A stretch of 36,189 bases of DNA from Candidatus Kapaibacterium sp. (GTDB lineage: Bacteria > Bacteroidota > Ignavibacteria > Palsa-1295), in NCBI GenBank assembly GCA_017882165.1, contig JADGPZ010000012.1, positions 1 to 36,189 of the forward strand, given 5' to 3'. The notes under the pieces are model-generated. The model saw only the letters and a program-made list of their open reading frames with translations. It was not told the DNA's origin and did no database searches. Made by a program: the position numbers and the translations under genes. Shown piece by piece: positions 30,155 through 35,738 of this stretch; within the stretch, counting starts at the first letter, position 1; every line of letters begins with the position of its first letter.

Positions 30155-30931
30155 TTGAACATTCTCAACAAGCTTCGCGCAGAATTTCGAGCTGCCCGGC
30201 ATGAACCGGAAAGCATTACTCGCCTGCGCGAGTTTAGTCCGCTTTCCTGGTTCTTCGAGCGGCTGCTGTTTTGGGCCGAGTTTGGCTCGTTCTCGATCCT
30301 CTTCATTCCAACGCGCTCGCTCATTCATTCGGCCCTTCACGATCTCAACGACCCGCGCGAAAAGGAATCCTATATCATCGAGCACATGCTCCACCGTGCT
30401 CGGCATGTGGATCTGTATATCATACTTTGGATCGTGTTCGAAGTAGTGCTGGCATTAGCCCTGAACGTGGAGAATGCGCTGTGGCTCCTCGTTGTGGTTC
30501 GTGTTCTCATGGCCCTGCGCATCGTCGACATCGCGCAGGCCAACATCAACCTCAACGTGTTCGACCGTCTCCGTTTTGCCGAGACCAGCCACGTGACGGT
30601 CTCGGTCACTCGCAACCTGATCCTGGCCGTGATCACATACGTCGAACTGGTTGTGGTCTTCGCAGTCACATATGCGACTATGCCAGCGAACGTCCATGGC
30701 GTGATGCATCTGTACGATTGCCTCTACTTTAGCATGTCGACCCAGCTTACGGTGGGCTACGGCGATCTGCATCCAATTGGCGTTGCGCGCTATATCGCGA
30801 CCGTGCAGGGCATGATTGGATTCTTCTTCAGCCTGCTCATCATGAGCCGCTTCGTCTCACTGTTGCCGGCAGTGCGAACTGTTTTCGGGGACGACTTGCA
30901 ACACGACAAGAAGCCGGGTCATCCAGTGTAA
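30155..30931 (+). CDS. Potassium-channel-like membrane protein (Ion_trans_2)
   Basis: 258 aa, TTG start; an in-frame stop at 30131-30133 and no earlier ATG make TTG at 30155 the likeliest choice. About five hydrophobic segments are seen: LYIILWIVFEVVLALALNV, ALWLLVVVRVLMALRIV, a segment near 150-175 (LILAVITYVELVVVFAVTY), the pore loop FSMSTQLTVGYGDLHPIG with the K+ selectivity filter TVGYGD, and the inner helix GMIGFFFSLLIMSRFVSLLP. There is no RCK/KTN or cyclic-nucleotide domain and no Arg-rich S4, so gating is unclear. A short soluble N terminus rich in Arg/Glu precedes the first helix. Its end overlaps the convergent murB gene by 13 nt. Confidence 0.88.
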   Translation: MNILNKLRAEFRAARHEPESITRLREFSPLSWFFERLLFWAEFGSFSILFIPTRSLIHSALHDLNDPREKESYIIEHMLHRARHVDLYIILWIVFEVVLALALNVENALWLLVVVRVLMALRIVDIAQANINLNVFDRLRFAETSHVTVSVTRNLILAVITYVELVVVFAVTYATMPANVHGVMHLYDCLYFSMSTQLTVGYGDLHPIGVARYIATVQGMIGFFFSLLIMSRFVSLLPAVRTVFGDDLQHDKKPGHPV

Positions 30932-33988: not shown

Positions 33989-34477
33989 ATGCAAGCGCCA
34001 ATTGTCGGTATCATCATGGGCAGCGCCTCCGACTGGGACACGATGCGGGAGACGCACAACGTCCTGGAGGAATTCGGTGTCCCCCACGAGTATAGAGTCC
34101 TTTCCGCCCACCGCGCGCCTCGTGCCGTGACGGAGTATGCTGAAAGTGCGGAACAGCGCGGTCTGAAAGTTATCATTGGCGCGGCTGGCGGCGCGGCGCA
34201 TCTGGCCGGAGTGCTCGCGGCGCAGACGTTGCTGCCCGTGCTCGGCGTCCCGATCGAGAGTCAGGCACTCAAAGGTATGGATTCGCTTCTTTCGACGGTG
34301 CAGATGCCCGGCGGCATACCGGTCGGCACGCTCGCCATCGGTAAGGCCGGCGCAAAGAACGCCGCATTGCTTGCCATAGCCATGCTCGCCACAACCGACC
34401 CAGCCCTCCGCGAGAAGTTGCTCGTTTATCGCGAAAAGCAGACACAAGCGGTCCTCGACGCAAAGTTAGAAGGATAA
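33989..34477 (+). CDS. purE: N5-carboxyaminoimidazole ribonucleotide mutase (class I PurE)
   Basis: 162 aa, ATG start. PurE moves the carboxyl group of N5-CAIR to carbon to form CAIR in purine synthesis. The signatures are all present: GIIMGSASDWDTM, YRVLSAHRAPRAV (catalytic His), VIIGAAGGAAHLAGVLAAQT, PVLGVPIES, and MPGGIPVGTLAIGKAGAKNAALLA. Length is typical of class I enzymes, which normally work with PurK; purK is not in the window. It is divergent from elbB and probably heads a transcript with the next one or two genes. Confidence 0.97.
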   Translation: MQAPIVGIIMGSASDWDTMRETHNVLEEFGVPHEYRVLSAHRAPRAVTEYAESAEQRGLKVIIGAAGGAAHLAGVLAAQTLLPVLGVPIESQALKGMDSLLSTVQMPGGIPVGTLAIGKAGAKNAALLAIAMLATTDPALREKLLVYREKQTQAVLDAKLEG

Positions 34478-34482
34478 CACCG

Positions 34483-35148
34483 TTGCGCGTTCAACTGATC
34501 ACTGACGAAGTCTACCGCGATGGTTTTGTGCGGTATCTCTCCGCACAGTCAGGGATTGAGATCGTCGTTGATGCGCCCGATGTGATTCTCGACGCCATCT
34601 TTCTCGACCGCGACAAGAAGCTTGCCGTGCTTGCGGAGCTTGCTCCATCTGTGCCGGTTCTGACGAACACACTCACGATGGCCGCCACAACTGTGGCCCA
34701 AGCGCTGGGAGGATCGACCACAGTGCTTGGCATGCCGATCTTTCCTCACCACTTCGAGGGACAGAAGACCGTCGAGATTTCGCTACCGCTTGGAGCCACC
34801 TATTCTACCGAAGTTGCGACGAATTTCCTGTCTTCTCTTGGCAAAACCGGCGAGCAGATCGGCGACTGCGTTGCCGGTATATTTGCCCGAACGCTGGCGA
34901 TGATCGTCAACGAAGCGGCCTTTGCTGTGCAGGAATCGGTGGCTCTGCCGAAAGACATTGACACCGCAATGAAGCTTGGTACGAACTATCCGAAGGGGCC
35001 TTTGGCCTGGTGTGACGAAATCGGTGCGGAGGCAATTGTTGCTGTGCTAGATGCGCTGGCCGGTGAATATGGGCCTGAGCGATACCGAGTCGCGCCGCTG
35101 CTCCGACGTCATGCCGAGGCCGGGATGAAATTTATTGAGAATAATTAG
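34483..35148 (+). CDS. Truncated 3-hydroxyacyl-CoA-dehydrogenase-like protein, probable pseudoenzyme
   Basis: 221 aa, TTG start with a good ribosome site (AGAAGGA, 8 nt ahead), 5 nt after purE. The C-terminal half matches the 3HCDH C-terminal domain well: MIVNEAAFAVQESVALPKDIDTAMKLGTNYPKGPLAWCDEIG, then YRVAPLLRRHAEAG. The N-terminal part keeps only the later half of the Rossmann domain: the GxGxxG motif is missing, TNTS is TNTL, the catalytic His of GMHFF is Pro85 in GMPIF, and the Asn of the FxxNR motif is Ala135. Glu98 of the catalytic dyad remains. At about 280 residues normal enzymes are some 60 longer. I infer a CoA-binding or structural protein without normal dehydrogenase activity. 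The frame is intact, so it is not decay. Confidence 0.8.
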   Translation: MRVQLITDEVYRDGFVRYLSAQSGIEIVVDAPDVILDAIFLDRDKKLAVLAELAPSVPVLTNTLTMAATTVAQALGGSTTVLGMPIFPHHFEGQKTVEISLPLGATYSTEVATNFLSSLGKTGEQIGDCVAGIFARTLAMIVNEAAFAVQESVALPKDIDTAMKLGTNYPKGPLAWCDEIGAEAIVAVLDALAGEYGPERYRVAPLLRRHAEAGMKFIENN

Positions 35149-35186: not shown

Positions 35187-35738
35187 ATGCTTATTTCGCT
35201 CGAAAATCCCCAATTCTTTGGTGTCGCTGAGGTCACAGAACTCCGTTCGCTTGGCCTCTGGCAAGATTCTCATACTACGCCCTCGAAGCTCGCGTTCGCC
35301 GGGTTGTTGTTGGCTCCGATCATGCAAATCGTCGTCCGCGACGATGCAACCTCGACCGCCGAATTCCAGATGATGCAGGAATACCTGGAAACGCTCCAGC
35401 GTGGATTCGCGCTGGCTACGCATTCCGACCTGGAATCCATCGGCACCGATATGGGGCTGCTACCGATGCTCCGCGGCACCTGGGACACTGCGAGGTTTCA
35501 ACGGGCTCGCTCCCTCCTCGCGGCTGTGGTTGGCCGCCTCACGGAGCGAGAAGCAGACGATGTTCGGAATGCTGTCGCGCACGCTGCGCTTGCGGCGGTG
35601 AAGGCTGGCAGTCCGCATATGATCAGCTTCCATTTGGTCGATGACGAAGAGCGCGCGATGGTACAGGACCTGATCCGCGACCTTAAGCTCGAGCGCTCAT
35701 CCGAAGGGCTGAACCTGCTGAATAAGGCGCAGAACTAA
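35187..35738 (+). CDS. Hypothetical helical protein
   Basis: 183 aa, ATG start, 38 nt after the preceding gene. No signal peptide or membrane helix. It looks mostly helical with two similar acidic-basic stretches, [29 protein letters not shown] and [24 protein letters not shown]; the D-D/E-R-E spacing recalls TerB-like helical domains, but this is only a resemblance. I do not recognise the family. Its stop codon overlaps the stop of the convergent fbp gene (shared bases 35736-35737). Confidence 0.6.

Follow-up and report, generated by a model that had tools for sequence, protein, structure and literature searches.

The C-terminal 3HCDH domain is the dimerisation domain in HBDH and PaaH. In the alpha subunits FadB, FadJ and MFE-1 the 3HCDH domain is duplicated and fused with a hydratase, and the second, non-catalytic copy stands in for the dimer mate. 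PaaH itself has been described as two dehydrogenases fused into one chain, only one of which works. It is a mimic of the HBDH dimer, in which the second Rossmann domain has neither the catalytic residues nor the NAD cleft (PMC4498308). The literature searched held no description of a split PaaH and nothing relevant on split or inactive 3HCDH partners. The gene described here, paaH_C, has an ordinary ancestry but an unusual arrangement: it encodes one half of a split PaaH whose halves are unlinked.

The gene was found in a Candidatus Kapaibacterium genome (G000), in a window of 36,189 nucleotides, the whole stretch of DNA analysed (Table 1). It starts 5 nt after the end of purE, with which it is probably co-transcribed. 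The preliminary description was right that the frame is intact and the ribosome site good. Orthologues in five genomes of the same genus are 59-69% identical, near-equal in length and have the same start, and the form of about 220 aa is common to all genomes of this family (f1) that have the gene. As purE occupies the upstream DNA and the orthologues share the start, there is no hidden N-terminal extension; this rules out a frameshift hiding a longer N-terminus, or a truncated HBDH. The downstream 183-aa reading frame adjoins paaH_C elsewhere only in the sister genome G001 (82% identity). A polysaccharide/O-antigen type cluster and an ion channel gene lie further upstream in the window.

Table 1. 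Features of the window (positions counted from its first letter)
Feature	Position	Strand	Remarks
Polysaccharide/O-antigen type cluster	6288-26496	-	Glycosyltransferases, sugar transferase with CoA_binding_3, Wzy_C ligase, SLBB export protein
Ion channel protein (Ion_trans_2)	30155-30931	+	GYGD selectivity-filter-like motif
purE	33989-34477	+	TIGR01162, 1.9e-62
SD-like AGAAGGA	34468-34474	+	Inside the end of purE, 8 nt ahead of the TTG; read from sequence
paaH_C (PaaH second-half protein, stand-alone)	34483-35148	+	221 aa; TTG start, TAG stop
Reduced Rossmann region	34483-34782	+	Spans residues 1 to roughly 100; retains strands and helices but lacks GxGxxG (AlphaFold2 model, alignments)
3HCDH C-terminal domain	34882-35124	+	Residues 134-214; PF00725; most conserved part
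Open reading frame	35187-35738	+	183 aa; no recognised family

The only Pfam domain in the protein is PF00725 (2.4e-17, 63.7 bits against a cut-off of 22.1); the same search gave no match to 3HCDH_N. Identity to the family orthologues is 64-85% over residues 131-221, against 25-52% over residues 1-66. The 3HCDH domain is thus well kept, as first described, and the Rossmann half cut down. In NCBIfam the protein aligns to positions 361-504 of the 507 in PRK08268 (4.2e-35), and it scores 118.1 bits against TIGR02279 (PaaH), covering only 392-498 of 503 and missing the model cut-off of 669.4 bits. Its top sequence match in the PDB is E. coli PaaH (3MOG), mainly the second domain (358-467).

The missing motifs were all verified in the window sequence. 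There is no GxGxxG, Pro85 (codon 34735-34737) stands at the position of the catalytic His of GMHFF, and Ala135 (codon 34885-34887) at that of the Asn. Of the His-Glu pair, the Glu remains (E98), as in 26 of the 29 aligned second-half sequences. The catalytic His was present in all 20 comparison HBDHs, but the Asn varies even among intact dehydrogenases: half of those HBDHs (10 of 20) have Thr at that site. Ignavibacteria HBDHs with Thr (TTR) for the catalytic Asn (NR), and with the His and NAD motif intact, include L007, L014, L021, L026, L033 and L036. Neither the GMHF-type His motif nor the NR motif occurs in any of the second halves (0/29 for each); the His position is P, S, A, N, G, R or a gap, and the Arg following the lost Asn and an NE pair are invariant. 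The absence of the motifs across all 29 sequences means that the loss is old and family-wide. A regular-expression scan picked up GxGxx[GA] in two second-half sequences, both distant (L004 and L011), which are at most putative NAD binders.

E. coli K-12 PaaH was cut into halves and placed in a 90-row tree with the short forms, tandem and dispersed partners, fused forms and ordinary HBDHs. All second halves, including those from the window and from E. coli, formed one group of 38 rows (100/100), recovered in 200 of 200 bootstrap trees, although the E. coli row is long-branched and its place inside the group unsure. The first halves (PaaH_N) formed a second group of 34 rows (100/99) that includes E. 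coli and a protein from elsewhere in G000 (contig C157). Ordinary HBDHs, among them the G000:C101 protein, fell outside both. The single clade rules out separate invention of the short forms through loss of the N-terminus; as the trees are unrooted, the direction may have been fission of a fused PaaH or fusion of older separate genes. By sequence, then, the window protein is the orthologue of the second, non-catalytic half of E. coli PaaH, encoded as its own gene. It is not the minimal 3HCDH relative it had been taken for, but a known degenerate module.

The predicted structure is consistent with this. An AlphaFold2 model built from an alignment of the window protein and 34 relatives (pLDDT 92.6, pTM 0.89) has a cut-down beta-alpha N-domain followed by the 3HCDH helices. 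Foldseek matched the model to HBDHs (TM to query up to 0.83), and against 3MOG chain C it showed 39% identity at 2.0 A over 155 columns. The modelled fold fits the second (dead) half of PaaH.

The C157 protein (291 aa, G000:C157:5141-6016) is the matching first half. It covers positions 5-289 of PRK08268 and scores 415 bits with the PaaH-type model against 315 bits with the HBDH type. It and the window protein complement each other as the two parts of a single enzyme, both encoded in G000.

In some relatives the two pieces lie in tandem, PaaH_N then PaaH_C (G014, G016, G026, G033, G035, G042, G051, G060, L001-L005 and L030), in other members of the class, several named MAGs, Paludifilum and one Bacteriovoracaceae MAG. 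Several tandem loci have enoyl-CoA hydratases or paaF/paaG ahead and paaJ behind (L128, L130, L030, and L004 with paaABCDK). Where the halves are separated, PaaH_N is found with paaF/paaG (L194, L196, L197, L200-L202) and PaaH_C with a PcaF/PaaJ thiolase (L112-L125, L139). As the E. coli gene order is F-G-H-I-J, the separated arrangement suggests a break in the operon inside paaH. Fused forms of 390-409 aa also occur (L144 6326-7498, L145 6414-7595, L066 2651-3877), with the second 3HCDH domain following the first half and little or no reduced Rossmann region between. Four f1 genomes have a 3-hydroxyisobutyrate-dehydrogenase-like gene between paaH_C and paaJ (L116 2724-3581, L117 8477-9334, L118 6247-7098, L119 9115-9966). 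Stand-alone second-half-like proteins of about 220 aa were seen in Bacteroidia, Flavobacteriales, Flavihumibacter and Ignavibacteria (L008-L011, L013, L015, L053), and no PaaH first half was detected beside them within the stretches examined.

Our preferred reading, to which we give a probability of roughly 0.7, is that PaaH_C is the dead half of a two-piece PaaH, the NAD-dependent 3-hydroxyadipyl-CoA dehydrogenase of the phenylacetate pathway, and acts as its pseudo-dimer subunit. This role agrees with published work, in which PaaH mimics a dimer and one of its halves is dead. PaaH_C would bind PaaH_N through the 3HCDH helical domain, replacing the second subunit of an HBDH-type dimer. It may keep the acyl-CoA cleft of PaaH_N in its proper shape, fix the oligomeric state and influence activity, with all the chemistry on PaaH_N. 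PaaH_C could instead partner another dehydrogenase, either the ordinary HBDH encoded on C101 in the same genome or a 3-hydroxyisobutyrate-dehydrogenase-like protein; a NAD_binding_2 protein does lie between PaaH_C and paaJ in G007, G008, G010 and G012. We consider this unlikely, as that neighbour is missing beside PaaH_C in the remaining genomes of the family, the C101 type belongs to a different clade and is nowhere in tandem with PaaH_C, and the consistent tandem mate is PaaH_N.

The distribution of PaaH_C follows that of the phenylacetate pathway protein PaaA. A profile of the 29 second halves separated PaaH_C (at least 203 bits) from HBDHs (at most 186 bits) across 61 genomes, of which 36 had PaaH_C and 33 had PaaA over its cut-off. 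Both were present in 30 and neither in 22, with PaaH_C only in 6 and PaaA only in 3 (Fisher 3.6e-8, a figure that overstates the evidence, the genomes being related). Two of the three PaaA-only genomes have the fused form and the third is a fragmented assembly. By family, PaaH_C occurs in 11, 10 of which have PaaA; among the six families without PaaH_C, PaaA was found only in f10, which has the fused form.

The pathway context in G000 itself is less complete. PaaA is present over its cut-off and a paaJ orthologue lies elsewhere in the genome (G000:C1:91618-92820), but no paa gene adjoins paaH_C within the window. No phenylacetate-CoA ligase (PaaK) scored over the TIGR02155 cut-off in G000, the best PaaG homologue has only 37% identity and no PaaZ fusion was found there; by the searches made, the phenylacetate pathway in this genome is incomplete. 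The natural substrate here might therefore be a dicarboxylic 3-hydroxyacyl-CoA supplied by some other route. Similarly, the six PaaH_C genomes without PaaA over the cut-off, together with G012 (92% complete), which has PaaH_C and no clear match to PaaH_N, make another substrate or partner possible.

The preliminary description drew attention to purE, and suggested a role other than that of a dehydrogenase, such as CoA-thioester sensing or a structural partner. The linkage is real within family f1, where 11 of the 12 genomes with the gene have purE close by: paaH_C directly follows purE in G000-G005, G008 and G012, and follows purE-purK in G007, G010 and G011. The exception, G009 (67% complete), has no purE near the gene. 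Beyond f1, paaH_C had no purE next to it, which rules out functional coupling to purE as a general rule. As paaJ has moved away in G000 and its sister G001, the window shows none of the old neighbours but purE. The linkage reflects hitch-hiking or co-expression particular to this lineage and gives no evidence of a new function; purE is at most a candidate functional partner.

PaaH_C might still function without a partner, as a pseudoenzyme or regulator that forms homodimers and binds CoA thioesters, perhaps with a tie to purine synthesis; both the purE linkage in f1 and the strongly conserved helical domain would suit such a protein. We think this improbable, given that outside f1 the neighbours are paaJ and PaaH_N, and that Pfam and NCBIfam revealed no DNA-binding or signalling domain. 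PaaH_C is no dehydrogenase by itself, and of the two suggested roles the structural partner is favoured. Nothing supports a CoA-thioester sensor serving purine synthesis, because the purE link is limited to f1 and the wider neighbour is a PaaJ-type thiolase.

The suggestion that selection maintains paaH_C is borne out: pN is 0.19-0.28, well under a saturated pS of 0.73-0.78, dN/dS is about 0.12-0.13 where computable, and length is constant among the orthologues. PaaH_C is therefore very unlikely to be a decaying relic left by the splitting of paaH, for although it evolves faster than PaaH_N by branch length and its N-terminal region is poorly conserved, the gene is intact and of equal length in 12 of 12 family genomes that have it and its fold is predicted with high confidence.

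If the pseudo-dimer reading holds, the enzyme might go further and be an obligate two-subunit 3-hydroxyadipyl-CoA dehydrogenase with its halves at unlinked loci and the pseudo-enzyme half in a purine-synthesis transcript. A non-catalytic subunit, co-expressed with purE, would then set the limit on phenylacetate or dicarboxylate oxidation. We regard this as speculative and rather doubtful. Genomes with separate PaaH halves allow a direct question to be asked: does the catalytic half need the dead half, and is the dead half more than a dimer mate? There is also a consequence for annotation: a protein of this kind, of about 220 aa, would be labelled a broken 3-hydroxybutyryl-CoA dehydrogenase, and a PaaH would be overlooked by pathway tools.

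Among known systems, HBDHs (PRK05808; for example 4KUG and 4PZC) share the overall fold (TM 0.73) and the 3HCDH domain, but the window protein lacks the GxGxxG motif, the catalytic His and about 60 residues of the Rossmann half, and lies outside the HBDH groups of the tree. Similarity to FadB, FadJ and MFE-1 is low. Among the 390-409-aa forms of PaaH, L144 and L145 combine PaaH_N with a second 3HCDH domain of the PaaH_C clade; in these and in L066, however, the halves are fused and the reduced Rossmann region is absent or much shorter. The second half of E. coli PaaH (b1395, 3MOG; TIGR02279, PRK08268), residues 283-475 or thereabouts, has in common with the window protein the reduced Rossmann region followed by the 3HCDH domain, the missing His, Asn and NAD motif, and the clade. 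Unlike its E. coli counterpart, the window protein is a separate protein with a gene to itself, which adjoins purE and lies apart from the gene for the catalytic half.
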